43,777 nucleotides of DNA from Lachnospiraceae bacterium (lineage in GTDB: Bacteria > Bacillota > Clostridia > Lachnospirales > Lachnospiraceae), in the NCBI GenBank assembly GCA_017473905.1, contig JAFUJA010000002.1:1-43777 (forward strand). Reading direction: 5' to 3'. Position numbers and translations under genes: made by a program. Numbering within the stretch: position 1 is the stretch's first letter; every line of letters starts with the position of its first letter. Positions 8,012 to 32,914 of the stretch are shown here, one piece after another. The notes beneath the pieces are model-generated. The model did no database searches. It was given only the letters and a program-made list of their open reading frames with translations, and was not told where the DNA came from.

Positions 8012-8033
8012 AAGACGAATTTCATAGAAATGC

Positions 8034-8330
8034 AATCAGGTGTCGGAACGATGACACAAGTTGTCGGTTCCGGTGAAAAGGGAAACAGGTGTGAATCCTG
8101 TACGAACTCGTCACCGTAATTCAGGAGCAGAAGCCGAAATATCACTGGTAAAACGGGAAGATGGCGGATGTGATGATAGTTAAGCCGGGAGACCTGCCTG
8201 ATTGAAGTACGGAAACGGTAGTTTCAAACCACGAGTAATTGGTTAAGCGTGCTGGATGAGTAAAAGAGCCTGACTCTTTTGCTGCATTATGCGTGCAAAC
8301 CCTTTACCCGTAGCGGTAAAGGGTTTTTTT
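8034..8330 (+). promoter_or_regulatory. Cobalamin riboswitch with transcription-termination platform
   Basis: This stretch fills most of the 378-base gap 7973-8350. The aptamer core is recognisable: GGTGAAAAGGGAA, GGTGTGAATCCTG and the B12 box AAGCCGGGAGACCTGCC at 8182-8198. The closing stem P1 is AATCAGG (8034-8040) with CCTGATT (8197-8203). The platform (8204-8330) ends in a 12-bp terminator, 8297-8308 with 8315-8326, followed by seven T. A smaller hairpin near 8264-8280 (AAAGAG/CTCTTT) may belong to the alternative fold. Known cobalamin riboswitches of this layout switch off transcription when adenosyl- or another cobalamin is abundant. The downstream genes fit B12 uptake. Confidence 0.92.
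8297..8330 (+). terminator. Riboswitch-controlled intrinsic terminator
   Basis: AAACCCTTTACC pairs with GGTAAAGGGTTT over a 6-base loop and runs into T7. The start codon of the lipoprotein gene is 20 bases further on, after AGAGAGGAG. Confidence 0.9.
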
Positions 8331-8350: not shown

Positions 8351-8872
8351 ATGAAAAACAAAAAAATCTTAAGTATCTTATTGGTTGTATTATCCGTAGC
8401 CATGCTTGCTTCAGGATGCGGAGAGAAAACATCAGCTCCCGTGAACGATGTTCCCTCTGATGTAGTTGCGGAGGACAGCGAAGGTTCTTCTTCAGAAGAA
8501 TCTGAAAGTACGGAAGCTGTATCTGAGGAAACAACAGAAGCAACAGAAGGTTCTGAAACCGCAGATGTAACTGTATTGGGTGAAGGAAATACGGTATTTA
8601 CATTTGTTGTGACAGACAAGGACGGAAATGAAACAAACTTTGAAATTCATACCGATGCCAAAACCGTAGGAGAGGCACTTCTTGCTCTGGGTTTGATTGA
8701 GGGAGAAGAAGGTGCGTACGGTCTTTATGTAAAAGTTGTAAACGGTATTACCGCGGATTATGACGTAGACGGTACCTATTGGGCATTTTACGTAGATGGT
8801 GAATATGCAACCTCCGGTGTTGATATGACTGATATTGTTGAAGGCAGTGTGTATTCTTTTAAGGTGGAATAA
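8351..8872 (+). CDS. DUF4430 lipoprotein, probable surface corrinoid-binding protein
   Basis: The protein has 173 residues. It has a lipoprotein signal with lipobox ASGC (lipidated Cys23), then a Ser/Glu/Thr-rich linker to about residue 72. The C-terminal domain (about 75-173) contains TVGEALLALGLI, TADYDVDGTYWAFYVDG and VEGSVYSFKVE. This is the DUF4430 pattern, a fold related to the C-terminal domain of transcobalamin/intrinsic factor. It lies directly under a cobalamin riboswitch and is followed after three bases by an ECF S-component. I therefore infer that it captures corrinoids at the cell surface and hands them to the transporter. Corrinoid binding is inference from fold and context; no ligand is visible in the sequence. 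Confidence 0.87.
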   Translation: MKNKKILSILLVVLSVAMLASGCGEKTSAPVNDVPSDVVAEDSEGSSSEESESTEAVSEETTEATEGSETADVTVLGEGNTVFTFVVTDKDGNETNFEIHTDAKTVGEALLALGLIEGEEGAYGLYVKVVNGITADYDVDGTYWAFYVDGEYATSGVDMTDIVEGSVYSFKVE

Positions 8873-8875
8873 TCA

Positions 8876-9400
8876 GTGAAACTTACGATTCGGGAAATGG
8901 CACTGTTTGGAATGTTTGGTGGATTGATGTATGCATCAAAGGTTCTGATGGAAGTGTTGCCAAATGTACATCTGATAGGGGTTTTTGTTGTTGTTCTGAC
9001 CGCAATATACAGACAGAAAGCATTGTACCCTATTTATATCTTTGTCTTTATTACAGGATTATTGAATGGATTTAATACGTGGTGGATTCCATATGTGTAT
9101 ATCTGGACCGTGCTTTGGGGAGGCGTTATGCTGATTCCCACCCGCATGCATAAGGTATGGCAGACGGTTGCGTATGTAATTGTCTGTGGCGCCCATGGTT
9201 TTTTATACGGAACCTTATACGCACCTTTTCAGGCGTTGGCATTCGGACTGGATTTTCAAGGTATGATAGGGTGGATTATTGCAGGAATCCCGTTTGATGT
9301 AATTCACGGAGTGAGTAACCTTTTGTGCGGGGTTTTCGTCATTCCCGGATTGATAACCGTGCTGAGAAAAGCAGAAAATACGATTCAGAAAAATGAATAA
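8876..9400 (+). CDS. ECF transporter S-component, probable cobalamin/corrinoid specificity
   Basis: The protein has 174 residues with five to six hydrophobic helices, typical of an ECF substrate-binding S-component (IREMALFGMFGGLMYASKVLM, GAHGFLYGTLYAPF, AGIPFDVIHGVSNLLCG). The start is GTG at 8876, preceded by AAGGTGG and placed three bases after the lipoprotein stop, so the two are translated from one mRNA. No EcfA or EcfT gene is nearby, so it must use a shared ECF energising module encoded elsewhere (group II arrangement). The riboswitch and the DUF4430 partner point to vitamin B12 or a precursor as substrate. This is inference, since S-component substrates are hard to read from sequence. 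Confidence 0.85.
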   Translation: MKLTIREMALFGMFGGLMYASKVLMEVLPNVHLIGVFVVVLTAIYRQKALYPIYIFVFITGLLNGFNTWWIPYVYIWTVLWGGVMLIPTRMHKVWQTVAYVIVCGAHGFLYGTLYAPFQALAFGLDFQGMIGWIIAGIPFDVIHGVSNLLCGVFVIPGLITVLRKAENTIQKNE

Positions 9401-9475: not shown

Positions 9476-9850
9476 TTATGAATATGCCTTCTTGATTGCT
9501 GCGAAAGATTCTTCACTTAAATCGTGTTCAATCATACAGGCATCTGCGGCAGCAGTTTCCTGAGAAACGCCCAGACTTACCAGCCAATTGGTAAGAATGG
9601 TGTGACGCTCCAGAACATTTTCTGCCCAGGCAAGTCCTTTATCCGTAAGGGTAATATAGCCTGTCTCATCCATTGTAATATACTCTTTCTGGCGTAAATT
9701 TTTCATTGCAACACTGACACTGGGTTTGGAAAAATTCATTTCGGTTGCGATGTCAATGGAACGTACATAGCCTTGTTTTTTCTGGATGGATAGGATTGTT
9801 TCTAAGTAATCTTCCATGGATTCGTTGGAATGGTGTTTGATATGATTCAT
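9476..9850 (-). CDS. DtxR/MntR-family metal-dependent transcriptional regulator
   Basis: The 124-residue protein begins with SMEDYLETILSIQKKQGYVRSIDIATEMNFSKPSVS, a winged helix-turn-helix typical of DtxR/MntR/IdeR proteins. It continues with a dimerisation helix carrying metal-ligand type residues (ERHTIL, DACMIEHDLSEESF). It lacks the C-terminal SH3-like domain, so it is MntR-sized. The family represses metal uptake genes when Fe(II) or Mn(II) is bound. The start ATG is at 9848-9850, after a purine-rich GGGGGAAC on the minus strand. A GTTAG-N6-CTTAC element 28 bases upstream closely resembles the two palindromes before the nitrogenase-like operon at 24193-24286. This suggests autoregulation and control of that operon. 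Whether iron or manganese is sensed is open. Confidence 0.9.
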   Translation of the reverse strand: MNHIKHHSNESMEDYLETILSIQKKQGYVRSIDIATEMNFSKPSVSVAMKNLRQKEYITMDETGYITLTDKGLAWAENVLERHTILTNWLVSLGVSQETAAADACMIEHDLSEESFAAIKKAYS

Positions 9851-9877: not shown

Positions 9878-9893
9878 GTTAGAATAAACTTAC
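9878..9893. promoter_or_regulatory. Candidate DtxR-type operator upstream of the regulator gene
   Basis: GTTAGAATAAACTTAC is an imperfect palindrome; the arms extend to AAGTTAG and CTTACTT with one mismatch. It matches 13 of 16 positions of the site at 24193-24208. Its position just upstream of the minus-strand ATG fits an autoregulatory operator. Confidence 0.5.
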
Positions 9894-13409: not shown

Positions 13410-15038
13410 ATGTCGTTATATGAAAAGGTTTTCGTGGAAAGGCAAAAATATATGGCAGGTTATCCGTATTTGGAAACGGTAGTATATCACAATTTCTATG
13501 AAATGTTAAAAGGTGTTTATGATAAAACACCGGATGAAATTGCCTTACGTTTCAGGGAAAAAGAAGAAATCATAGATATTTCCTATACCCGTCTGGTTGA
13601 AGAAGTGGGAAGCGTTTACGGGTTTTTGAAGAATAAAAAGATGCAGGGACGTATCATAGGTATTGTATCAGAGAACCGGTATGAATACATTCCTCTTTAT
13701 CTGGGAACTTCTTTTGAAAATGTGATTGCACCAATTGATAAGGAAAGTGTTCCGGAGGATTTTGGGAAGCAAATCAGGGATTTTGATGTAGAAATGATTT
13801 TTTACACGGAGAAAACCCGACATCTGGTGGAACAGTTTGAATATGATGATAAGATAGTATGTATCAATATTGACGATGATTACAAAGAAATTACCACAAA
13901 GAAACCGGTGATTTCGGATTTTTTTGAACAGGTAAAAGACGTAGACAGTGATAAATTTTCCGTTTTGGCTTTTACATCCGGAACCACGGGAGCATTGAAA
14001 GGCGCCATGTTGTCCCAGCGGAACGTAACTGCAACATTAAGGGGGGCATTACAGAACAATGTGTTAAAAAGTCCTTCTTTGGCAGTTCTTCCCATGAACC
14101 ACACCTATGGTTTTAATCCGGGAATTTTATGTACTCTTTATAACGGAGGGACTTTGTGCCTGACCATGAATATCAAGCACTTCCAGAGGGATTTAAAAGA
14201 ATATAATCCTTATTTTGTGAGTCTTGTTCCCATGGTAGTGGAAGGGATGTATAACAAAATATGGGCAGAAGCGAAGCGTATGGGAAAAGATAAGCTTTTG
14301 CGCCGTATGATTAAGTTAAGCAACTTTCTTTTAAAGTTTAAAATTGATATCCGTAAAAAGGCATTCGGCAATCTTTTGAATCCGGCATTAAAATTTATTT
14401 CCTGCGGCGGTGCCCCCTTGAATCCGGCTTATGTGGACAGATACCGGGAATTGGGAATCTATCTTTTAAACGGTTATGGCTTGACGGAATGTGCTCCTTT
14501 GGTTTGCATCAACAGAGAATTTGATATGGATGTAAACAGCGTGGGAACCGTTACCAAAGAAGTGGATGCCAAAATTGCGGAAGATGGTGAAATTCTTATA
14601 AAAGGCCCCAATGTCATGCTGGGATATTATAAAAATCCGGAAGCAACGAAGGAAACCATGACGGATGGATATTTTAAAACCGGAGACTACGGCTATCTGG
14701 TGGAGCGTCGCCTTTATGTGACGGGGCGTAAGAAGAATCTGATTATTTTAGATAACGGTAAAAATGTATCGCCTGAAGTTTTGGAGGCGAAATTAAATGC
14801 TTTGGACTGGGTGAAAGAATGTCTGGTTATTGTAGGAAAAGTGCAGAACAGGCGTGTGCTGAAGGCACTTATTTATTCCGAGGAATCCCCGTCTGAAGAA
14901 CGTATCCGTAAAGACATCGAGGCAATTAACGGAAGTGTTCCGGAATATATGCAGATTCTTGATTACAAGATGATGGATACCGAATTTGAAAAAAACAGCA
15001 CGAAGAAAATATTACGGAACAGATATGAGGAGAACTGA
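13410..15038 (+). CDS. AMP-forming acyl-CoA/acyl-ACP ligase
   Basis: The protein has up to 542 residues of the ANL adenylating superfamily: VLAFTSGTTGALKGAML (P-loop), LNGYGLTECAPL, YFKTGDYGYL, VTGRKKNLIILDNGKNVSPEVLEA and the C-terminal catalytic Lys in NSTKKILR. It activates a carboxylate as acyl-AMP and transfers it to a thiol. The acyl carrier protein gene two bases downstream is the obvious acceptor. I report the longest ATG frame. However, no ribosome site precedes 13410, whereas the second ATG at 13452 follows GGAAAGG and sits at a sensible distance from the -10 element, so the true start may be 13452. It is the first gene of the acyl / radical-SAM cassette. The acyl substrate is unknown. 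Confidence 0.9.
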   Translation: MSLYEKVFVERQKYMAGYPYLETVVYHNFYEMLKGVYDKTPDEIALRFREKEEIIDISYTRLVEEVGSVYGFLKNKKMQGRIIGIVSENRYEYIPLYLGTSFENVIAPIDKESVPEDFGKQIRDFDVEMIFYTEKTRHLVEQFEYDDKIVCINIDDDYKEITTKKPVISDFFEQVKDVDSDKFSVLAFTSGTTGALKGAMLSQRNVTATLRGALQNNVLKSPSLAVLPMNHTYGFNPGILCTLYNGGTLCLTMNIKHFQRDLKEYNPYFVSLVPMVVEGMYNKIWAEAKRMGKDKLLRRMIKLSNFLLKFKIDIRKKAFGNLLNPALKFISCGGAPLNPAYVDRYRELGIYLLNGYGLTECAPLVCINREFDMDVNSVGTVTKEVDAKIAEDGEILIKGPNVMLGYYKNPEATKETMTDGYFKTGDYGYLVERRLYVTGRKKNLIILDNGKNVSPEVLEAKLNALDWVKECLVIVGKVQNRRVLKALIYSEESPSEERIRKDIEAINGSVPEYMQILDYKMMDTEFEKNSTKKILRNRYEEN

Positions 15039-15040
15039 AC

Positions 15041-15271
15041 ATGATTGAAACACTGAAGAAAATGATGAAAGACTGTTACGGCATAGAAGACCTGAGAGGG
15101 GATGCGAATTTTAAAAAGGATTTCGGTCTTTCTTCTTTTGATTTTGTTAATCTTGTCTGTATGCTGGAGGAAGATTTTAATATTGAAATTGATGAAAAGG
15201 ATTACCGGGCATTAAATACGGTAGATGAGCTGATTGCTTATCTTGAGAAAAAAGCAGCCTGCAGTCAGTAA
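15041..15271 (+). CDS. Acyl carrier protein
   Basis: The product is a small acidic protein of 76 residues with the carrier-protein pattern KKDFGLSSFDFVNLVCMLEE. It aligns with the canonical DLGLDSLDLVE, so Ser32 is the expected phosphopantetheine attachment site. The start follows GAGGAGAACTGAAC and lies two bases after the ligase stop, implying translational coupling. A dedicated carrier next to an AMP ligase is the usual way to load a starter acyl or aminoacyl group for tailoring. The two GNAT-type transferases and the radical-SAM enzymes that follow could act on the carrier-bound chain. That link is inference from gene order. Confidence 0.92.
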   Translation: MIETLKKMMKDCYGIEDLRGDANFKKDFGLSSFDFVNLVCMLEEDFNIEIDEKDYRALNTVDELIAYLEKKAACSQ

Positions 15272-22762: not shown

Positions 22763-22783
22763 ATGAGGCGGAGGAGACGGGAA

Positions 22784-24103
22784 ATGAACAAAAAGATATT
22801 GCTGATTCAACCCACACCTTATGACCAACATGGTGTACTTGTGAAAAAAAACAGATTGTTCTTTGTGGGACTGGCTTTGCCGCTTCTGGCTGCGCTGACT
22901 CCGGAAGAATATGAGGTGGAATTGTGCTATGAAACCATAGAAGATGTTCCCTTTGATACGGATGCGGATTTAATCGGTATCAGCAGTATGGGACATGCGG
23001 TGCACCGTACCATTGACATTGCCAATAAGTTTCGTGAAATGGGTAAAACCGTGGTGCTGGGCGGCTATATGGTAAGTCTTATGCCGGAAGAAGCACAGAA
23101 GTATGCGGACTGCGTTATGATTGGAGATGCGGAGGAAACCTGGGGAGAAATGCTTGCAGATTATTCCCGGGGAGAATTGAAGAAGGTTTATCGTAAAAAG
23201 CTTACAAAGTTAGAAACTCCACTTCCCAGATATGAGCTTCTTTTAAATAAAAAAATAGGCAATTTCCTGCCGGTGCAGGCAGGAAGAGGATGTCCGAAAA
23301 CCTGCAGCTTCTGCTCCGTATATTGTTTATACAGAGGGCAGTAATTAAAACGCAGCATACCGGATGTAATAAGGGATATTAAGCGTGTAAAAGAGCTTGG
23401 TTTTAAACAGTTTCTTCTTTTGGATGATAATATTTTTTCGGACAGGGATTATGCCATTGAACTTTGTGCTGAAATTAAAAAATTAAAAATGAAGTGGATG
23501 ACCCAGTGTTCCATAGACATTGCCAAGGATGAAGAACTGCTGGATATTATTGCCAAAAGCGGCTGTTATGTTTTAAGCTTCGGACTGGAAAGCATTACCA
23601 GGGAAAGTCTTGTGAGCATGAACAAAGCATGGGCGCATCCGGAGAACTACAGCGAACAGATCCGTATTATCAGAAAACACGGCATAGATATTTCTACGGA
23701 GATGGTAGTGGGAGCAGACGGAGATACATTGGAATCCATACGGAAAACTGCGGATTTTATTTCGGATAATCATATTGCCGTGCCGAGATTTTATATCCTT
23801 ACACCGATTCCCGGAACGAAGTTTTTTGACGAAATGGAAGAGCAGAAGCGTATCTATAATCCGGATATTTATTCTTATAATTCCTGTGAGGCGGTGCATG
23901 TGCCGAAGAATATGACACCGGAGGAACTGACAAAAGCTTACTGGGATTTGTACAACGAAGTATATACCATGAAAAGTATTTTGAAGCGGACCATTTTTAC
24001 AAGTACGTTTATAAAAAGACCGTTTAACGCAATCTTTTATTTTGCGGTGAATGTGTTTTACCGTTCCCAGATAAAGAGAGGAATTGTTCCGAATATTGTG
24101 TAA
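22784..24103 (+). pseudogene. Cobalamin-binding radical SAM protein 5, interrupted by an in-frame TAA
   Basis: The start ATG follows GGAGGAGACGGG. The frame codes a divergent B12-binding radical SAM protein (about 439 codons): IGISSMGHAVHRTIDIA, VVLGGYMVSLMPEEAQ, then GRGCPKTCSFCSV with Cys170, Cys174, Cys177. Codon 187 is TAA (23342-23344). After it the same frame continues without loss as LKRSIPDVIRDIKRVKELG, FLLLDDNIFSDRDYA, LSFGLESITRESL and VVGADGDTLESI up to 24103. In homologues the interrupted place reads like GxYRKRPVEEVI, so a Tyr codon (TAT/TAC) has probably become TAA. The truncated 186-residue peptide would lack most of the barrel. It belongs to the more usual BchE-like type (GRGCP), unlike the four upstream paralogues. 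Confidence 0.88.
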
Positions 24104-24109
24104 AAATTT

Positions 24110-24140
24110 CAAGGACTATGGAAATGTAGTCCTTGTTTTT
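24110..24140 (+). terminator. Intrinsic terminator closing the radical-SAM cassette
   Basis: CAAGGACTA (24110-24118) pairs with TAGTCCTTG (24127-24135) and is followed by T5. Confidence 0.85.
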
Positions 24141-24155
24141 ATGTAAAAAAATCTA

Positions 24156-24185
24156 TTGACATCCGATGAAGAGGTATGCTATTCT
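24156..24185 (+). promoter_or_regulatory. Promoter of the nitrogenase-like operon
   Basis: TTGACA at 24156-24161 and TATTCT at 24180-24185 are spaced by 18 bases. The predicted start point, near 24192, abuts the first palindrome. Confidence 0.65.
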
Positions 24186-24192
24186 GTCAAAG

Positions 24193-24208
24193 GTTAGAAA
24201 ATACTAAC
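24193..24208. promoter_or_regulatory. Palindromic operator 1 (DtxR-type candidate)
   Basis: GTTAGAAAATACTAAC has 5-bp perfect arms GTTAG/CTAAC around six A/T-rich bases. It overlaps the predicted transcription start, a position that would block initiation when occupied. It resembles the element at 9878-9893 in front of the DtxR-type gene. Confidence 0.62.
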
Positions 24209-24270: not shown

Positions 24271-24286
24271 GTTAGTTAAAACTAAC
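24271..24286. promoter_or_regulatory. Palindromic operator 2 (DtxR-type candidate)
   Basis: GTTAGTTAAAACTAAC is a perfect palindrome (arms GTTAGTT and AACTAAC) 78 bases downstream of operator 1 and 32 bases before the NifH-like start codon. Two matching sites in one leader are typical of metal-repressor regulons. Confidence 0.62.
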
Positions 24287-24317: not shown

Positions 24318-25082
24318 ATGATTAAAATTGCAGTGTATGGAAAGGGTGGAATCGGTAAATCCACCACGACATCAAATCTTTCGGCAGCTTTCAGCAAGAT
24401 GGGATACCGTGTTATGCAAATAGGCTGTGACCCGAAATCGGATTCCACCAAGAATCTGATGAAAGGGGTTAAGATTCCCACGGTTTTAGATCAGATTCGG
24501 GAAAAGGGAACGGACAATATCAAACTTGAGGATATTGTTTTTGAAGGTTACAATGGTGTCCTTTGTGTTGAAGCAGGCGGTCCTACACCCGGTATCGGTT
24601 GTGCGGGAAGAGGTATTATTACCGCTTTTGAAAAACTGGAAGAGTTGGGAGCTTATGAAACTTACAAACCGGATATTGTTCTTTATGATGTATTGGGAGA
24701 TGTGGTTTGCGGTGGGTTTGCAATGCCTATCAGAGGCGGATATGCCGATTATGTATTTATCGTTACATCCGGTGAAATGATGGCTCTTTTTGCAGCAACC
24801 AATATTTCACATGCAATTCAGAATTTCGGAAACAGAGGATATGCAAAACTTGCCGGATTTATTCAGAATTCCCGTAATGTAGAAAACGAGGATGAACTGG
24901 TAGCAAAGGCTGCTTCGGAAAATGAAACAACCGTTGTTAAAATTATCCCCAGGGATGGTGCGGTATGGACGGCAGAACAGCAGGGAAAAACTGTTGTAGA
25001 GGCTCTTCCTGAATCCGATATGGCAGGAGAATATAAAAATCTGGCAGAAAAAATGCTGGAGGTGATGAAAGATGGCATGTAG
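24318..25082 (+). CDS. NifH-like ATP-dependent [4Fe-4S] reductase
   Basis: The protein has 254 residues and its start follows ACGGAGAATGAAA. It belongs to the NifH/BchL/BchX/CfbC superfamily: P-loop GKGGIGKST at the N-terminus, [16 protein letters not shown] with Cys95 and Arg98, and [10 protein letters not shown] with Cys131. Cys95 and Cys131 are the pair that holds the bridging 4Fe-4S cluster at the homodimer interface. It should pass single electrons to the partner encoded by the next two genes at the cost of ATP. It is shorter than true NifH (about 290) and lacks a long C-terminal tail, closer to the nitrogenase-like reductases. No nifE, nifN or nifB is present, so nitrogen fixation is not implied. 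Confidence 0.93.
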
Positions 25083-26334
25083 TTTTCATGATACATTGCA
25101 TTATTCTTCCCCTGCAAACGGCGGCAGAGGAATTGTGAGAACCGGTATGCTCGTTCCGGAAAGTGTGGAATTGTTTGTTTGTCCCTTTGCATGCGGACGC
25201 CACGGAGCTATCAGTGCAGTAAAACAAAACTTAAAGCAACGTTTGTCATATCTTTATGTAAACCAAGCTGACATTGTAAACGGATATGATGACCTGATTA
25301 TTCCTGCGGTTGGAGAATTGCTTGAGACTTTGCAGAAGAAACCGAAGGTAGTACTTATTTTTGTGAGCTGTCTGGATGATTTAATCGGTACGGACCACGA
25401 GGCTTTACAGGAAAAACTTGAGGAAACATATCCGGGCATTGCATTCAGAAGCTGTCATATGAATCCGATTTCCAAGGGTTCTAAAACACCACCGGGTATT
25501 TCGATTCAAAACAACACGTTCAGTCTTTTGAATAAAAGAGAAGATAGAGATGAAAATATTAACTCTCTTGGGAATCTGATTCCGGTAGATGAGGCAAGTG
25601 AATTATATCCGTTTCTTGAAACCTTAGGTTGTGCGAATCTTCGCCATATCACTCATTATGAAACCTTTGAAGGATATCAGGACATGGCAAAAAGCCGTGC
25701 CAATCTTGTAATTACGCCTGTGGCCCGTCAGGCAGCGGAACAGATGAAGAAGAAACACGGAATGTCTTATTGTTTTGTTCCCGTCAGCTATCGTATTGAG
25801 CAGATTGAACAGGACTATGAGCATATGTATGAGGAGTTAAGAAAACCCGGTACAAATCCGGGAAAAATGGATTTTACAATCTATAAAGAAGATGCTTTAA
25901 AAAAGATTGAAGAAGCAAAATCTGTTATTAAGGATATGCCAATTATTGTGGATGCATCCGCAACAAAGTGTCCCTTCGGACTTGCAAGGGCTTTGGTCGA
26001 ATACGGTTTTCATGTAGTGAGGGTTCAGGCGCCGGAGGTCATTGGTATTGACAAAGGAAACTTCGAATGGCTTTGTGAAAACCATCCTGAAATAGAGGTG
26101 GTGGAATCTCTTCATCACAAATCCGTTTTACGGGAAAATCAGATTCCGGACAGCATCGCAATCGGTGTGGATGGTGCATATCTGGCAGGCTCTAAATATG
26201 TTATGGACCTTTTTGATGATGAGGGAATGTTTGGTTATCACGGTGTGTCCTGTATTATGGAGAAGCTTGCTCATGCAATGGATGCGGAAGTAGAACTTGA
26301 AAAAATGATACATGAGTATGGATTGGTGGTGTAA
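25072..26334 (+). CDS. NifD-like catalytic subunit (nitrogenase component 1 superfamily), subunit A
   Basis: The protein has 420 residues; its start overlaps the NifH-like gene by 11 bases, behind GGAGGTGATGAAAG. It has the nitrogenase component-1 layout: Cys37 and Cys41 in [10 protein letters not shown], Cys100 in [12 protein letters not shown], a middle Rossmann domain ([20 protein letters not shown]) and a C-terminal part with [12 protein letters not shown]. The early cysteines are placed like those that bind the cluster between the two subunits. The protein is shorter than NifD (about 480). With the next gene it would form the heterotetramer that receives electrons from the NifH-like protein. 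The group within nitrogenase-like proteins, and hence the substrate, is not identified; this is not a clear match to BchN, BchY, CfbD or MarD from memory. Confidence 0.87.
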
Positions 26335-26336
26335 AA

Positions 26337-27497
26337 ATGGCGGTTTTATCAGTGTATTTATCCCCTTTTGCCCCTGATTATTCCGGGGTATCAACGGTTA
26401 TGTTTGATTTAAATACCGTTACAGCTATGCATGATGCGTCCGGCTGTACCGGAAACTATACCGGATATGATGAACCAAGATGGTATGGTTCCAAGTCTCC
26501 CATCTTTTGTTCCGGTCTTCGGGAAATCGATGCTATTTTAGGAGATGATGAAAAATTAATCCGTAAAATGCTTCAGGCTGCTGAGGATTTAAAACCGGAT
26601 CTGATGTCTTTGGTCGGAAGTCCCGTCCCCATGGTTATTGGCAGCGATATGCAGGGTATTGCGGAAGAACTGCAGGCCAGAAGCGGAATTCCCAGTCTGG
26701 GATTTGATACTACGGGTACGGCTTATTACGATAAGGGTGTTGCCATGGCAACCATTGCATTGCTTAAGAAATTTACAAAAAAACAGGAAATGATATCCGG
26801 AACGGTAAACATTCTGGGGGCAAATCCTCTGGATTTCGGAAAAGGAAAGAATCTGGAAGTACTGCGAAATAAGATTAAGGAAGCCGGATACGGCATTACG
26901 GCATGTCTTTCCATGGGATATAACATGGATGCGTTGCAAAAAGCCTCTTCTGCGCAGGTTAATCTTGCAGTATCAAGAGCCGGATATCTTATTGCGGAAT
27001 ATATGTATAAAACATACGGAATTCCTTATCTTTGCGGAATTCCTGTGGGAGAAAAAGCGGGTGCGGGATATTTTGAATTACTGGAAGAAGTAATCCGTAC
27101 CGGTGAGAACCGTATTCAGAGAAGTACTGCAGAAGAAAAGGGTGAGGGAGAAGTCCTGATCATTGGTGAGCAGGTGCAGTCCAATGCTCTTCGTGAGGCA
27201 CTGGTTACCGATTTCGGAGAAACAAAGGTTACGGTAGCCTGTATCTTCGGAAAGGAAGCGGCTCTTTCATCAGAAGGAGACCTTTCTTTGGAAAGCGAAA
27301 GAGAAATCACCAATGAGATCAATTCCGGAAAATACAGAATGATTATAGCGGATCCTTTTATGGAGCAGCTTATGGAGGAAGGAAACAAATCCGTATTTCT
27401 AAAAAATGCTCTATATGCAGTATCCAGTAAGGTGTGCGGAGATGAAACACCGGATATGATTGGTGCAGATTTCAATACATGGTACAAAGCAAAGTAA
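26337..27497 (+). CDS. NifK-like subunit (nitrogenase component 1 superfamily), subunit B
   Basis: The protein has 386 residues and starts two bases after the NifD-like stop. The pattern GCTGNYTGYDEPRWYGS...IFCSGLREIDAILG is the typical N-terminal nitrogenase component-1 signature, with Cys37 and Cys58. The third position, where NifD/K proteins usually have Cys before VIG, reads LVGSPVPMVIGSD and has no Cys. Later parts hold GTVNILGANPLDFGKGKNLE and an IPYLCGIPVG segment. Cluster coordination between the two subunits may thus be asymmetric. It pairs with subunit A encoded just upstream. No cofactor-binding His/Cys pair typical of NifD is apparent. Confidence 0.86.
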   Translation: MAVLSVYLSPFAPDYSGVSTVMFDLNTVTAMHDASGCTGNYTGYDEPRWYGSKSPIFCSGLREIDAILGDDEKLIRKMLQAAEDLKPDLMSLVGSPVPMVIGSDMQGIAEELQARSGIPSLGFDTTGTAYYDKGVAMATIALLKKFTKKQEMISGTVNILGANPLDFGKGKNLEVLRNKIKEAGYGITACLSMGYNMDALQKASSAQVNLAVSRAGYLIAEYMYKTYGIPYLCGIPVGEKAGAGYFELLEEVIRTGENRIQRSTAEEKGEGEVLIIGEQVQSNALREALVTDFGETKVTVACIFGKEAALSSEGDLSLESEREITNEINSGKYRMIIADPFMEQLMEEGNKSVFLKNALYAVSSKVCGDETPDMIGADFNTWYKAK

Positions 27498-27536
27498 AAT
27501 GCGGATACTATTCCGTAAAATAAAAGGAGAACAGGA

Positions 27537-28715
27537 ATGAAAAAAAGAATTATAAGTGTTATATTAAGTGCGGTTCTTTGCCTTGGCATTTTAGCAGGAT
27601 GCGCAACGGAAAATGTGCCTGCTGCAGGCAGTGATACCGCAAGCGTAGAAGAACAGAGTGAAAGCAGTGCGGATATGACGGATGCAGTTGATCCGGAAGG
27701 AACCCATATTGTGGTAGACCATTTCGGGAATGAAGTAGAGGTACCCAATACCATTGAAACCATTGTAACGACTTCAATTACACCTATGCCGGCAGTATAT
27801 TGTATGTTTGCAGGTTCGGCAGAGCGTTTGATTGGTATGAGTCCTTCCTCTAAAGCGGCGGCAGAAAATTCCCTTCTTGCGGATATTATGCCGGAAATCA
27901 AAGATGTTCCCACTGATTTTATGACAGGGGGAGAAGTGAATATTGAGGCACTTCTTGCAATGAATCCGGATATTGTTTTCTGCAATACCAGCAAGGAAGA
28001 TGAGTATAAGCAGCTGGTGGCAGCAGGTCTTACCGTTATCGGTGTTTCCACCAGCCAGTGGGGAAGTGATTCTGTAGAAACCTTTGACGGCTGGGTTACT
28101 CTTTTGGGTGAGGTTTTCAATGAAGAAGACAAGGCTGCCGGCATTACGGAATACGGACATGAAATGTATGATATGATTCAGGAACGTGTTTCCGGACTTG
28201 AAGACAGTGAAAAGAAGCGTATTTTATTCCTTTATAATTACAGTGACGGTACCATTAACACTTCCGGAAAGAATCATTTCGGACAGTACTGGTGTGAGGC
28301 AACGGGCGGCATTAATGTGGCCGGAGAAAATGATACTAAGAGTCTTGAAATTAACATGGAACAGATTTACGAATGGGATCCTGATATGATTTACATTACA
28401 AACTTTGTTCCTTACCTTGCTGAAGATTTATATCAGAATACTGCTTTTGAAGGTCATGACTGGAGTGTTGTGAGAGCAGTACAGGAGGGAAAGGTGTATA
28501 AATGTCCTCTGGGTGTATACCGCTGGTATCCTCCTTCATCAGATACCCCTCTCATGCTTTTATGGATGGCGAAAACCAATTATCCCGACTTGTTTGCAGA
28601 TATTGATATGGAACAGGAAATGAAAGCATATTATAAAAAGTTCTATAACATTGAATTGAGCGATGAGGATATTATTAAAATCTTTAATCCCACTCGTGAA
28701 GCAGCGGGAGCATAA
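27537..28715 (+). CDS. Fe3+-siderophore / heme / cobalamin-type ABC transporter substrate-binding lipoprotein
   Basis: The protein has 392 residues; start after AAAAGGAGAACAGG, 39 bases from the NifK-like gene. The lipoprotein signal ends at LAGC (Cys22), then an acidic linker. The rest is a FecB/BtuF-type (cluster A-II) binding protein: IVVDHFGNEVEVPNTIETIV, RLIGMSPSSKAAAEN, GEVNIEALLAMNPDIVFC, GKNHFGQYWCEATGGINVAG and YEWDPDMIYITN. Family members bind ferric siderophores, heme or cobalamin at the outer face of the membrane. Its placement in the same operon as nitrogenase-like genes suggests that it imports the substrate, or the metal, of that enzyme. Ligand class cannot be settled by eye. 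Confidence 0.9.
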   Translation: MKKRIISVILSAVLCLGILAGCATENVPAAGSDTASVEEQSESSADMTDAVDPEGTHIVVDHFGNEVEVPNTIETIVTTSITPMPAVYCMFAGSAERLIGMSPSSKAAAENSLLADIMPEIKDVPTDFMTGGEVNIEALLAMNPDIVFCNTSKEDEYKQLVAAGLTVIGVSTSQWGSDSVETFDGWVTLLGEVFNEEDKAAGITEYGHEMYDMIQERVSGLEDSEKKRILFLYNYSDGTINTSGKNHFGQYWCEATGGINVAGENDTKSLEINMEQIYEWDPDMIYITNFVPYLAEDLYQNTAFEGHDWSVVRAVQEGKVYKCPLGVYRWYPPSSDTPLMLLWMAKTNYPDLFADIDMEQEMKAYYKKFYNIELSDEDIIKIFNPTREAAGA

Positions 28716-28718
28716 AAT

Positions 28719-29726
28719 ATGAAAAAAGGTTATGTTACGATTCTTACCGTATTCTTTGCGGTTGCTCCTTTTCTGGCAGCATTGGTTTGCTTGGGGATAG
28801 GTCGTTACGAACTGACTGTTTTTGAAACCCTGGAAGCAATTTATGATGCTGTTTCCGGTGCGCCGGTGGATGCAACCGTACAATCGGTACTTTTTAAAGT
28901 CCGGCTTCCCAGAATTATTCTTGCCCTCCTTGTGGGGGCAGGACTTGCGGTGGCTGGGACTTCTTTTCAGTCCCTGTTCAGCAATCCTCTTGCAACCCCG
29001 GATACGCTTGGCGTGGCAACGGGTGCATCCTTTGGTGCCGTTATCGCTTTGTTGTTGTGTAATAACTCTGTTGTTGTGCAGCTTTCTGCACTGGGATTCG
29101 GGCTTCTTTCACTGGCGATTACCTGTCTTGTCAGTAAAATGAACGGAAGAAGCAGTATTATTATGGTGGTATTGTCCGGTATGGTGGTTTCATCCATATT
29201 TCAGGCACTGGTATCCCTTGTGAAGTATACTGCGGATACGGAAGAAAAGTTACCTGCGATTACTTACTGGCTTATGGGAAGCATGTCCAGGGCGACTACT
29301 TCTGCATTGCTTATCGGTGCGCCTTTTATTATTGTGGGCATTATCATTTTATTTGCACTGCGCTGGCGACTGAATATTTTGTCACTGAATGAAGATGAGG
29401 CAAAATCTTTAGGAGTAAATGTGAAAAAACTTCGTGTTCTGGTTATGATAGCCGCAACCATGGTCACTGCATCCTGTGTTTCTATGTGCGGGCAGGTCGG
29501 CTGGGTAGGTCTTTTGGTTCCCCATGCCGCACGTATGATTTACGGCAGTGACAACAAAAAACTGATTCCTGCGGGAATCGGCATGGGAGCAACTTTTATG
29601 ATTGTGATAGATACCATTGCCAGAGCAGCTACTTCGGCTGAAATTCCGGTATCTATCCTGACAGCACTTATCGGTGCACCTTTCTTTGTATTGCTTTTAC
29701 GGAAAACAGGAGGCGCAAAATTATGA
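28719..29726 (+). CDS. FecCD/BtuC-family ABC transporter permease
   Basis: The protein has 335 residues with about ten hydrophobic helices. Hallmarks of the FecCD/BtuC family: VRLPRIILALLVGAGLAVAGT, FQSLFSNPLATPDTLGVATG, GRSSIIMVVLSGMVVSSI and CGQVGWVGLLVPHAARMIYG near the coupling helix. One gene is enough, as these permeases form homodimers. It starts three bases after the binding protein and overlaps the ATPase gene by four bases, so all three transporter genes are translated as one unit. Confidence 0.95.
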   Translation: MKKGYVTILTVFFAVAPFLAALVCLGIGRYELTVFETLEAIYDAVSGAPVDATVQSVLFKVRLPRIILALLVGAGLAVAGTSFQSLFSNPLATPDTLGVATGASFGAVIALLLCNNSVVVQLSALGFGLLSLAITCLVSKMNGRSSIIMVVLSGMVVSSIFQALVSLVKYTADTEEKLPAITYWLMGSMSRATTSALLIGAPFIIVGIIILFALRWRLNILSLNEDEAKSLGVNVKKLRVLVMIAATMVTASCVSMCGQVGWVGLLVPHAARMIYGSDNKKLIPAGIGMGATFMIVIDTIARAATSAEIPVSILTALIGAPFFVLLLRKTGGAKL

Positions 29727-30511
29727 CTTTTTCTGTTAAAAATGGTTGTTTCGGATATGAGGACAGACAAATTCTTCATTCCATTTCTTTTACATTGCAG
29801 GATAGTGAGGTTATGACGGTTTTAGGGCCTAATGGAGTTGGTAAAACTACCTTACTGCGTTGTATGATGGGGCTCTTAAAATGGCAAAAAGGGGATACAT
29901 ATATTGATGGAAAAACCATAAAAGAACTGAGAAGTGCGGAAGTGTGGAAGCGTATTGCATATGTGCCGCAGTCGAAAGGGACTGCACTTTCCTACACTGC
30001 CAGGGAAATGGTCCTTATGGGACGTTCGGCCCGTCTGGGAATGTTTGTACAGCCGAGTAAAAAGGATTATGAAGCCGCAGATGAAGCGATGGAAAGAGTG
30101 GGCATTACAAGGTTTGCCTATAAGCAGTGCAGTCAGATGAGTGGCGGAGAACTTCAAATGGTATTGATTGCAAGGGCATTAAGTGCCAATCCCAAGATGC
30201 TGGTACTTGATGAACCGGAATCCAATCTGGATTTTAAAAATCAGCTGATTGTCCTGGATACCATTCAGCGTTTATCAGAGGAAGAGGGCATAGGAGCAAT
30301 TGTAAATACGCATTATCCGGCGCATGCATTAAAAATAGCGGATAAGGCGTTGCTTCTTGATTATGCAGGCAATTCGAGTTTTGGAGATGTGGAAAGCATT
30401 GTCAATGAAGAGAATATGCAAAAAGCTTTTGCCGTAGAAGTAAAAATTGTGGATTTTGAATATAACAACAAATTCCATAAGGGAGTCATTCCTATCAGTA
30501 TTCAGGCATAA
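29723..30511 (+). CDS. FecE/BtuD-family ABC transporter ATPase
   Basis: The protein has 262 residues. Walker A GPNGVGKTTLL, Q-loop AYVPQSKG, ABC signature MSGGELQMV, Walker B MLVLDEPES and switch His in NTHYPAHA. The YTAREMVLMGRSARLGMF stretch is typical of the iron-chelate/B12 subfamily. The start ATG overlaps the permease stop (ATGA). It powers the importer encoded by the two upstream genes and ends the operon before a strong terminator. Confidence 0.95.
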   Translation: MTFSVKNGCFGYEDRQILHSISFTLQDSEVMTVLGPNGVGKTTLLRCMMGLLKWQKGDTYIDGKTIKELRSAEVWKRIAYVPQSKGTALSYTAREMVLMGRSARLGMFVQPSKKDYEAADEAMERVGITRFAYKQCSQMSGGELQMVLIARALSANPKMLVLDEPESNLDFKNQLIVLDTIQRLSEEEGIGAIVNTHYPAHALKIADKALLLDYAGNSSFGDVESIVNEENMQKAFAVEVKIVDFEYNNKFHKGVIPISIQA

Positions 30512-30514
30512 ACG

Positions 30515-30551
30515 AGAGCACCGGATTAAGCGTTTTCCGGTGCTCTTTTTG
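30515..30551 (+). terminator. Intrinsic terminator of the nitrogenase-like / ABC operon
   Basis: AGAGCACCGGA (30515-30525) pairs with TCCGGTGCTCT (30536-30546), followed by a T run. This marks the 3' end of the six-gene unit. Confidence 0.92.
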
Positions 30552-30682: not shown

Positions 30683-30706
30683 AAATTTACAAAGGAGAAG
30701 GTGCTT

Positions 30707-32914
30707 ATGTTTCACGTGTTGGTTGGTTTACAAATATTTGCAATTGTGATTCTGTCTGTGGCAATGATTTATATGTTCCGGGGAAATTCGACATATACCC
30801 AGAAACTTATGTTGTCTTTTACCATTGCGGAATTGGTACATAATGCAGGATTTCTTCTTGAATTACTTGCTAAAACGCAGCAGGAGGCCATGCTGGCCAT
30901 AAGAGTGCAGTATCTTGGCGGAAGTTTTGTTGCGATTCTTTTTATGATGTTTATCAGTAACTATTGTAATCAGAAAGAGCAGAAGCTTTTCGAACGTATT
31001 CTGTTGGTTTGCGCCTGCCTGGTGGTAACTATGGTTTGGACGAGTCCGTACCATACGCTATATTATTCTGAAATTGAATTCATTCATGAGGGTGTTTTTC
31101 CTCATTTAAAATTGACATACGGCATTGGTTTTTACTTTTATTTTATTGCCTGTACTGTTATTCCGTGGGCATCGGCTGTCTGCACCCTTGTGAAGGCAAT
31201 TTTAAAAGAGAAGAATAAAAAAAGACGGGGAAAACTCAGGTCCATTATAAATGGTGCTGCTTTTGCGTTAGGGGTGCTGGTTTTATACCTTTTTAAACTG
31301 TTTCCGGAAGGCTATGATCCTACTCCTGTTGCCATGGCGCTTATGTTTACCGTGTTGGTTATTTTTGTATGGAACCGGAAAGACTTCGATTTAAGCCGTA
31401 CTGCTACGGAGACGGTGTTAAACTCCCTTGGAGACTGCATGATTGCTTTGGATGAAAGCAATGAAGTGGTAATGTACAATGATGCTGCAAAGAAGCTGTT
31501 TGTTACGTTGGAAAATTACCGGAATATTAAGGAAGTAAATGATTTTCCATTGCAGATTCTGGAAGGACAGGAAAATAAAGCTTTTGAATTAAACGGAAGG
31601 CATTATGAAGTTCGTCTTCATACCCTGGAGGATTTCGAACAGGCCGTAAGAGGATATACGGTTGTAATTACGGATGTGACGGAAACCTACGAGCGCATTC
31701 GGGAATTAAATGAAATGAGAGAAAAAGCGGAAGAAGCCAATCTTGCCAAGTCCAATTTCCTCGCAAATATGTCCCATGAAATTCGTACACCCATGAATGC
31801 AATTGTAGGTATGAGCGAATTGATTATTGAAGAGTGTCACGGACGAAAAGTGTACGATTATGCCTGTGATGTGAAGAATGCTTCTAAGAACCTTTTATCC
31901 ATTATTAACGATATTCTTGACCTGTCCAAGGTGGAAGCGGGTAAAATGGTTCTGGTAGAACAGGAATACTTTGTACAGGCCATGATAAGAGAGAATATCA
32001 GCATTGTAAAAGTGCCTGCCGAACAAAAAGGACTTGACATTGAGGTGGATTTGGATGAAAATATTCCACATCTGCTATATGGTGATATGGGTAGAATCGG
32101 ACAGATTCTGATCAATATCATGAACAATTCCATTAAATTTACCAAGCAGGGCGGTGTATGCCTTAAAGTGACATCCCGGTATCTGGATGAAGAACATATT
32201 GAGTTACAGTTTGTGATTTCTGATACGGGAATCGGAATTAAGGAAGAAGAACTGGATTTGATTTTTGAATCCTTCAGACAACTTGATATGAACAAGAACC
32301 GCAAAACTGAAGGTACGGGACTGGGGCTGGCCATTACAAAGCAGCTGGTTGCTTTGATGGAGGGGGATATCAGTGTAGAAAGTGAGTATGGAAAAGGAAC
32401 CAGTTTCACTGTTAAAATAAAGCAGAAGGTGATTGACCGTCGTACCATCAAAGAAAGAACTTCCCATCTTAAAATGCCGGAATTGGAAAAGAGCAAACAA
32501 TTCGGGTTTGAAGATTGTCATGTTCTGGTGGTGGATGATAATGCCATCAATCGAAAAGTGGTTGATGCAATGCTTAGTACATATAATTTGCAGCCGGATG
32601 ATTCTGATTCGGGAAAAGATGCCATTGAAAAGGTAAAACAAAAAGATTATGATATCATTTTTATGGATCATATGATGCCTGAAATGGATGGTATAGAAGC
32701 AACTAAAATAATTCGTGAGGAATGTGATAAAAAAGGCAGACAGCCCATTATTATTGCCCTTACGGCCAATGCACTTCGAGGGGCGAGAGAGATGTATCTG
32801 GAAAACGGTTTTGATGATTTCCTTTCTAAGCCTTTTGAACGTAAACAGTTAAGTAAATTATTGGAAAGATGGATTCCCAAAGAAAAAAGGGTAGAAGTCG
32901 AATCTGATAAATAA
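30707..32914 (+). CDS. Hybrid sensor histidine kinase with membrane sensor and receiver domain
   Basis: The protein has 735 residues. The ATG at 30707 lies nine bases after GGAG; an in-frame GTG at 30701 is too close to it. About seven membrane helices fill residues 1-225 (7TM-type histidine kinase N-terminus). A PAS-like segment follows (about 235-330), then HisKA with His357 (FLANMSHEIRTPMNAIVGM). The ATPase domain has NIMNNSIKF, DTGIGIKEEEL and GTGLGLAITKQL. The C-terminal receiver (about 605-730) has VLVVDDNAINRKVV and phospho-acceptor Asp654 in IIFMDHMMPEMDG, plus LTANAL and FLSKPF. It should autophosphorylate and pass phosphate internally, then to an HPt protein. The free HPt protein at 2715-3089 is a possible partner. 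The stimulus is unknown. Confidence 0.95.
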   Translation: MFHVLVGLQIFAIVILSVAMIYMFRGNSTYTQKLMLSFTIAELVHNAGFLLELLAKTQQEAMLAIRVQYLGGSFVAILFMMFISNYCNQKEQKLFERILLVCACLVVTMVWTSPYHTLYYSEIEFIHEGVFPHLKLTYGIGFYFYFIACTVIPWASAVCTLVKAILKEKNKKRRGKLRSIINGAAFALGVLVLYLFKLFPEGYDPTPVAMALMFTVLVIFVWNRKDFDLSRTATETVLNSLGDCMIALDESNEVVMYNDAAKKLFVTLENYRNIKEVNDFPLQILEGQENKAFELNGRHYEVRLHTLEDFEQAVRGYTVVITDVTETYERIRELNEMREKAEEANLAKSNFLANMSHEIRTPMNAIVGMSELIIEECHGRKVYDYACDVKNASKNLLSIINDILDLSKVEAGKMVLVEQEYFVQAMIRENISIVKVPAEQKGLDIEVDLDENIPHLLYGDMGRIGQILINIMNNSIKFTKQGGVCLKVTSRYLDEEHIELQFVISDTGIGIKEEELDLIFESFRQLDMNKNRKTEGTGLGLAITKQLVALMEGDISVESEYGKGTSFTVKIKQKVIDRRTIKERTSHLKMPELEKSKQFGFEDCHVLVVDDNAINRKVVDAMLSTYNLQPDDSDSGKDAIEKVKQKDYDIIFMDHMMPEMDGIEATKIIREECDKKGRQPIIIALTANALRGAREMYLENGFDDFLSKPFERKQLSKLLERWIPKEKRVEVESDK

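Follow-up and report, generated by a model that had tools for sequence, protein, structure and literature searches.

Layout of the operon

The stretch of DNA analysed here, called the window throughout, is a 43,777-base contig of Lachnospiraceae-like character from a gut-type bacterium (JAFUJA010000002.1 of GenBank assembly GCA_017473905.1; contig 5 of its genome, for which the assembly spans 1.72 Mb and is 71% complete). At positions 24318-30511 it carries six genes, all on the forward strand, in which a nitrogenase-like reductase is joined to an ATP-driven importer in the order H-D-K, substrate-binding protein (SBP), permease, ATPase. Neighbouring genes overlap or lie no more than 40 bases apart. 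An initial annotation, made from the letters alone, had described this six-gene operon, and the coordinates of the open reading frames (ORFs) and the Pfam families bear it out, with each of the six proteins scoring above its family cut-off. The closest named relative, the one found in a scan of genome contigs, is a Lachnospiraceae metagenome-assembled genome whose D protein is 77% identical.

H (24318-25082, 254 amino acids) is a NifH-like ATP-dependent reductase (Fer4_NifH, PF00142, 330 bits). It has the NifH-type P-loop, and its two cluster cysteines, Cys95 and Cys131, can be read directly from the sequence, as the initial annotation had said. The score of H against the nifH equivalog TIGR01287 is 345.5 bits, under the cut-off of 394.35. 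D (25072-26334, 420 amino acids) overlaps H by 11 bp and K (26337-27497, 386 amino acids) follows it; both are component-1 subunits (Oxidored_nitro, PF00148, 76 and 94 bits), and Cys37 of K lies in the motif GCTGNYTGYDEPRW. The other three genes encode what is required of a FecBCD-type importer: a lipoprotein-type SBP with the lipobox LAGC visible in its sequence (27537-28715, 392 amino acids; Peripla_BP_2, PF01497, 79 bits), a FecCD-type permease (28719-29726, 335 amino acids; PF01032, 288 bits) and a FecE-type ATPase (29723-30511, 262 amino acids; ABC_tran, PF00005, 110 bits).

The operon is set off by plausible transcription signals on the same strand. A terminator-like hairpin of 11 pairs followed by TTTTT (24110-24135) lies 3' of the upstream gene, and the best promoter match, a putative sigma-70-like TTGACA-18-TATTCT with a TG element (24156-24185), agrees with the consensus at 10 of 12 positions. 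The operon would be closed by an intrinsic terminator at about 30516-30550, as first annotated; the 10-bp stem and T run were seen by eye, and the 10-base loop exceeds the limits of our terminator scan, so the site is not in the scan's list. Terminator-like matches are enriched in the operon region (11 versus 5.3 in shuffles), and promoter-like matches are not (14 versus 16.6).

A conserved nitrogenase-like family and its importer

Relatives of D at E ≤ 0.001 were detected in 57 of 299 genomes of the family and 46 of 391 genomes of the class, weak nif-type matches included. Sixty-two loci were read: 60 regions with strong D matches, the window, and L004, its nearest relative. Left out were G191:C1:444836, G124:C249, G167:C187, G245:C8 and G245:C67, together with the weak matches (E above about 1e-28). 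The analyst's labels A1, A2 and B were assigned by identity rank, by the presence of an SBP gene in the locus, and by the presence of hyp genes in the locus, respectively; genomes counted as type B include G091, where hypD is on another contig, and G167, where hypD is on the contig of D in a region that was not fetched. The ORF caller favours long ORFs, and it overlooked the SBP and permease genes in both L072 and L077, and in L072 also K. These genes were recovered by tblastn (on the caller's ORFs alone, 14 of the 16 A1 loci hold the full set of six), and other loci are possibly under-counted.

Clustering of 1130 ORFs from the 62 loci revealed the recurrent partners of the family: SBP in 27 loci, HypF in 26, permease, HypE and TM1266 in 24 each, HypD in 22, HypC in 19, HydF in 18 and HydE in 14. 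One member each of TM1266, HydF, HydE, HypC, HypD and HypE scored over its NCBIfam cut-off, and HypF was named from its sequence. In all 16 A1 loci, the window among them, H-D-K is accompanied by the genes of the SBP, permease and ATPase; two gene orders occur, and none of these loci has a gene labelled HydE, HydF or TM1266. The 13 A2 loci have the same importer, with hydE in 5, hydF in 6 and TM1266 in 6. In the 27 B loci, hypF-hypC-hypD-hypE is mostly flanked by two H-D-K sets; TM1266 is present in 17, hydF in 12 and hydE in 9. Six loci fall outside these classes. The A1 operon is also present in another phylum, on the 424-kb plasmid pTS1 of Treponema saccharophilum (L140, NZ_AP025289.1, 76230-107465), where it is accompanied by a second, divergent SBP gene and its genes are annotated as nitrogenase.

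That the importer and the nitrogenase-like genes are chance neighbours is scarcely credible. We found nothing in favour of that explanation; the SBP gene adjoins K or heads the operon in 27 of the 62 loci by clustering and in two more by tblastn, and the linkage persists despite changed gene order and on a spirochaete plasmid. The initial annotation had proposed a genome survey as a check on chance neighbourhood; the linkage counts refute chance, and the importer is a real partner of the nitrogenase-like genes.

Genes of this kind have been noticed before. Dos Santos et al. (2012; PMC3464626), in the parts of the paper available to us, describe NifHEN-like clades with two cysteines in the alpha subunit (C88, C154) and one in the beta subunit (C95), lacking the FeMoco ligands, in Methanocorpusculum labreanum, Desulfitobacterium hafniense, Coprococcus catus and Dorea longicatena, the last two with two linked copies. 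According to the same parts, nitrogenase-like genes stand beside ABC transporters in certain genomes and beside genes for hydrogenase maturation in others, and links to cofactor assembly are proposed (PMC3464626). D and K share the three-cysteine pattern with those clades, a likeness drawn from the published description rather than from a comparison with the named sequences. New relative to the 2012 account, so far as it was accessible, are an iron operator that marks the importer clade and connects it with feoA, the pattern of hydG loss, a D tail that separates clades, and the shared SBP, all described below. A search of the open literature, mostly of titles and the beginnings of abstracts, found no report that connects nitrogenase-like genes with the loss of hydG or with an iron operator, an absence that carries little weight.

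The conserved cysteines of D and K are few. Alignments were built from 33 of the 80 D rows and from 33 K rows, and cysteines were rechecked on all rows: D-Cys41 and D-Cys100 are invariant in 80 of 80 D rows and K-Cys37 in 78 of 78 K rows; every other cysteine, and every histidine, stays below 80% conservation. These three positions align with cluster ligands of NifDK, NifEN and BchYZ, those of the NifD C88, NifD C154 and NifK C95 types in Azotobacter numbering (C98, C164 and C95 in the aligned Rhizobium proteins). K-Cys37 also aligns with BchZ C35 and BchB Asp36. The pattern suggests that D and K hold a [4Fe-4S] cluster with one non-cysteine or open site. The FeMoco ligands (Cys275, His442) and the full set of six P-cluster cysteines are not conserved in these 80 D and 78 K rows. 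A nitrogenase was accordingly rejected, in agreement with the initial view that N2 fixation is not indicated.

D and K lie outside the characterised families with which they were compared. Scores against the NCBIfam models for NifE, NifD, BchB and CfbD are far under their cut-offs (for K, 51.7 bits against the BchB model TIGR01278 and 30.6 against CfbD, whose cut-off is 268.4). Profiles of 33 subunits place D nearest to NifE among PDB entries (8e-21) and K nearest to NifE, NifD and BchB. In a superfamily tree whose references were Rhizobium and Paraburkholderia NifDK, Rhizobium NifEN, and one each of BchN, BchB, BchY and BchZ, the 15 D rows group together with support of 92/99 and the 15 K rows with support of 89/100, both clades lying outside the reference rows. 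The tree check called for by the initial annotation thus sets D and K apart from the characterised clades included; deep forks are weak, CfbD and Mar are not among the rows, four rows (X_L055-X_L058) were dropped as fragments arising from frame choice, and X_L060 is only 18% filled. D and K are the only proteins over the PF00148 cut-off in the window's own genome, 71% complete as stated (nifB was not searched for). Compared with NifEN and NifH, the operon is similar in its D profile, its cluster site and its NifH-type partner, but differs in that D and K have three conserved cysteines only, H falls under the nifH equivalog cut-off, and the genome has no further PF00148 protein.

The enzymes BchLNB and BchXYZ are two-component systems with 4Fe-4S clusters only and a substrate cavity between the subunits. 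They share aligned cluster positions with D and K, and the operon might by analogy encode a tetrapyrrole or corrinoid reductase, comparable also to CfbCD, whose substrate is a tetrapyrrole brought in by the importer and for which iron release is incidental or plays no part. The match of K to the BchB model, the alignment of K-Cys37 with BchB and BchZ, the weak similarity of the SBP to IsdE and BtuF, and the fact that heme serves as an iron source are consistent with such an enzyme. D and K are nonetheless in clades separate from the Bch rows, the operon has an importer and an iron operator, there is no tetrapyrrole gene among the named recurrent neighbours, and the cobalamin riboswitch of the window is 16 kb away before other genes. 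We consider this explanation unlikely.

Probable iron control and a proposed imported complex

A palindrome search located two exact copies of GTTAG-N6-CTAAC on the forward strand ahead of the operon, at 24193-24208 and at 24271-24286, the latter 47 bp before the start of H. A candidate regulator, a DtxR/MntR-type metal-dependent repressor of 124 amino acids, is encoded on the reverse strand at 9476-9850 (PF01325, 48 bits; PF02742, 47 bits), and a copy of the operator with one mismatch (9878-9893, forward strand) lies just upstream of its gene. The initial annotation had described metal-repressor-like palindromes here. In the window alone the case for them is weak, with three matches at no more than one mismatch against 0.83 expected, a number reached by 6 of 100 shuffles, but across loci it is strong. 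The exact operator occurs 19 times in the 62 loci, always in the 16 A1 loci (324 kb, 0.11 expected), and is absent from the other 46 (809 kb, 0.28 expected). Fifteen of the 19 sites precede the operon, in 10 of 16 A1 loci; the remaining four precede feoA (the repressor gene flanking that site at its other end), feoB, a CRP-like gene and a cut-off ORF of 124 amino acids. Counted by operon, the operator is found in 10 of 16 A1 loci and 0 of 46 others (Fisher 7e-8, the loci being related).

The same sequence connects the operon with ferrous iron transport genes. In L004, copies of the operator are found ahead of feoB and in the gap that separates feoA from a DtxR-type repressor gene, and the repressor beside feoAB there matches that of the window at 9e-44. 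The 779 kb of the window's own genome that were read contain four exact operators: two before H, one before feoA, and one by an HD-domain-like gene. In that genome feoB comes after feoA with an imperfect copy, GTTAGTATTAACTCAC, between them, and FeoA, FeoB and the repressor were confirmed by Pfam. The copy by the HD-domain-like gene (L161:1912, contig 16) overlaps the called start of that gene, which is odd for an iron regulon. On the Treponema plasmid, GTTAGTGTCCGCTAAT precedes H. Since the operator is common to the operon and to feoA, and a repressor gene is present in the window, the operon can be placed in an iron (or manganese) regulon of the DtxR/MntR type, and clade A1 looks like part of such a regulon together with feoAB.

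H, D and K belong to a real, uncharacterised nitrogenase-like family in a conserved, iron-regulated operon. We put at roughly 0.5 the probability that the window's copy is an iron-starvation operon in which an imported metal complex is reduced by H and DK and its iron freed or re-ligated. When iron is scarce, the repressor would leave the operator, and the SBP, permease and ATPase would import a metal complex, most probably one that contains iron and is too inert to be reduced by ordinary enzymes. Hydrolysing ATP, the H dimer would then pass low-potential electrons to a cluster with D-Cys41, D-Cys100 and K-Cys37 as its ligands, and this cluster would reduce the imported complex in the cavity between D and K so that iron is freed or re-ligated. 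The initial annotation had suggested reduction of an imported chelate or tetrapyrrole, perhaps to free iron. The idea of iron is strengthened by the operator and the feo link, while the identity of the ligand and its reduction are still things we infer. Known iron-uptake systems use flavin, ferredoxin-type or radical-SAM steps. FecBCD and FeoAB under DtxR-type control resemble the operon in the FecCD-class importer and in the operator common to feoA; the operon differs from them in carrying an ATP-dependent nitrogenase-like reductase.

The SBP offers some guidance as to what is imported. Its best match among solved structures is 4ovk (3e-49) and its second is HI_1472 (2e-20), the molybdate binder MolA; further matches are labelled as iron, nickel, B12 or heme binders. 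The literature search gave no lead to the SBP's ligand. The 28 A1 and A2 SBPs have conserved residues in common, for example W252, N260, Y278, W280, Y328 and R329, and no column among these 28 sequences separates A1 from A2, so the two clades likely bind one class of ligand. An importer for an oxyanion or another metal (molybdate, tungstate, manganese or nickel) that builds a cofactor of D and K would fit the HI_1472 match, the resemblance of the repressor to MntR, and the proposal of the 2012 authors, in the accessible parts of their paper, that metal transport is coupled to cofactor assembly (PMC3464626). It fits less well with 4ovk as the best solved match, with the lack of conserved cofactor-type cysteines or histidines in D and K beyond the three cysteines, and with the same operator before feoA, and it strikes us as very unlikely.

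Several observations weigh against the iron-starvation reading or limit it. The exact operator is absent just upstream of 6 of the 16 A1 operons, and one copy in the window's own genome is by a gene with no evident iron role. The repressor scores best with MntR models, under their cut-off, and manganese control is therefore possible. The similarity of the SBP spans binders of iron complexes, B12, heme and molybdate (HI_1472), and the equivalence of the three cysteines with cluster ligands is a prediction from alignment.

Sister clades linked to hydrogenase maturation genes

In a tree of 80 D rows, the hypF-adjacent copies of type B (B1) account for 21 of a clade of 24, with two Bx and one O (100/99). 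The other type-B copies (B2) are intermixed with A2 in a clade of 37 rows on a long branch (19 B2, 12 A2, 3 Bx and 3 O; 100/100), indicating that the same orthologue goes with the importer in A2 and with hypFCDE and a second H-D-K set in B. A1 forms a grade around this clade, and within it the window groups with L004 and L064-L066 (100/99). The tree thereby backs B1 and a joint A2+B2 group among the assigned labels. A C-terminal KGxGC tail, often with one more cysteine, is found on D in 12 of 13 A2 and 17 of 19 B2 sequences, and in 0 of 16 A1 (the window included) and 0 of 21 B1.

Genomes with A2 or B loci rarely have HydG. Among the 299 family genomes, HydG is over its cut-off in 132 and HydF in 160; the HydF set was defined by a best E < 1e-90, which gives the same number. 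HydF-bearing genomes with a strong D match comprise 5 with and 25 without HydG, versus 123 with and 7 without in the rest (Fisher 3e-18; such values are not strict probabilities because the genomes are related and many are incomplete). Restricted to A2 and B, the family counts are 1 with and 23 without HydG. In the class sample all 16 A2/B genomes have HydF and 15 lack HydG, making 38 of 40 for family and class together. HydA (PF02906) is present in 64 of 66 genomes examined, including every A2 and B genome, and absent in G000 and G047; a HydA gene lies immediately 5' of H in L113 and 6 kb 5' of the D gene in L117. HypD was found in 28 of 28 type-B genomes, 0 of 13 A2 and 3 of 15 A1. The [NiFe] hydrogenase large subunit (PF00374) is in only two of the 28 type-B genomes (G230, G069), each time beside a second HypD away from the H-D-K cluster, so the hyp genes of the other 26 have no detectable [NiFe] hydrogenase to serve.

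These patterns suggest that the A2/B sister clades probably represent a HydG-free route to the H-cluster, in which this reductase machinery appears to contribute to assembly of the H-cluster where HydG would otherwise do so. The H-cluster carries one CN and about two CO per iron, whereas the product of the Hyp proteins is Fe(CN)2CO, and the ligand that is lacking could be provided or exchanged by a low-potential reductase. Several results speak against such a route. In six family genomes (G011, G114, G122, G128, G142, G181) HydF is present while HydG and a strong D are both missing, a search with the D profile returning nothing in any of them, which indicates that HydG can be missing for other reasons. 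HydG is present in G224 (A2) and in G562, labelled A2 although its D is outside the A2/B2 clade; HydG and HydF are only partial in G047; G175 (A2) has no HydF over the cut-off; and some A2 or B loci show neither hydE nor hydF nearby.

A comparable pattern has been reported in Clostridium. A 2022 survey of acetogens (PMC9431212) states, in the portions open to us, that HydE and HydF occur in all eight species and HydG in three, with HypCDEF but not HypA or HypB in five. Its authors offer there no straightforward explanation and list atypical HydG-like radical SAM candidates (PMC9431212). By analogy, type B may explain these HydG-less acetogens.

The association with HydG loss is not seen in A1. 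The sisters resemble the HydEFG and HypCDEF maturation systems in sitting among hydE, hydF, TM1266 and hypFCDE; the window's operon differs in having no hydE, hydF, TM1266 or hyp neighbour and no KGxGC tail on its D. Its genome has a hydE-hydG-hydF operon on contig 30, preceded by a TM1266-like gene (TM1266 named from its sequence), and replacement of HydG by the window's operon was rejected on that ground. HydF-bearing A1 family genomes comprise three with and one without HydG, and no link to HydG loss is evident (p=1). Replacement of hydEFG as a whole was also rejected. Eight of 15 A1 genomes lack HydF over the cut-off and five of these eight have strong HydA; this is uninformative because strong HydA (PF02906, best E < 1e-80) is likewise present in 45 of 80 family genomes that have neither HydF over its cut-off nor a strong D, a control set picked from about 130 by completeness (≥94%).

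The operon might still, like A2/B2, serve assembly of the H-cluster or another CO- or CN-bearing cofactor, with the importer bringing iron or an iron complex and H and DK acting as a NifEN-like reductive scaffold. The intermixing of A2 and B2 with A1 as a grade around them, the proximity of D to NifE, the HydG-less state of 38 of 40 A2/B genomes, and an A1 genome with HydF and no HydG (G048) would accord with that role. Against it stand the complete TM1266-hydE-hydG-hydF operon of the window's genome, the lack of association between A1 and HydG loss, the absence of the D tail from A1 and of labelled HydE, HydF or TM1266 genes from its loci, and the A1 genomes without HydF; the proposal seems distinctly unlikely. 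A broader scheme, tentative and quite improbable, would unite the clades: a single family would handle an inert iron complex such as an iron-cyanide or iron-carbonyl, A1 winning iron from the imported complex and A2/B2 passing the iron together with its ligands on to HydE, a task otherwise HydG's. The same precursor would then come from two sources, imported by the A2 importer or made by the type-B hypFCDE with its second H-D-K set. Such a scheme would give an H-cluster route that bypasses hydG and could account for the Clostridium acetogens lacking a typical HydG.

Other features of the window were observed in passing. A cobalamin riboswitch (8021-8215, 95.4 bits, Rfam) is followed by a gene for a DUF4430 lipoprotein-like protein (8351-8872) and a 174-amino-acid ORF (8876-9400) with no match in Pfam or NCBIfam. 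A 542-amino-acid ORF at 13410-15271, a ligase by eye, clusters with AMP-ligase-like proteins of other loci, and a carrier-protein-like ORF of 76 amino acids comes after it. Upstream of the operon, at 22763-24103, two ORFs of 193 and 227 amino acids resemble the two halves (N- and C-terminal) of a single B12-binding radical SAM protein, so that gene may be split; several ORFs similar by eye precede them. Directly past the operon terminator is a hybrid histidine kinase with a 7TM sensor (30701-32914).

The initial annotation missed the hydrogenase-maturation neighbourhood that the same family occupies in genomes without hydG, and these hydrogenase-linked sisters are a larger discovery than the iron operon of the window. 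If the iron-starvation reading is true, the operon would represent a new job for the nitrogenase fold, the ATP-driven release of iron from an imported complex in anaerobes, and Treponema saccharophilum is a cultured, named carrier of the A1 operon. The sister clades make what was an aside in 2012 testable: an H-cluster pathway without HydG, and Hyp proteins active without a [NiFe] large subunit.

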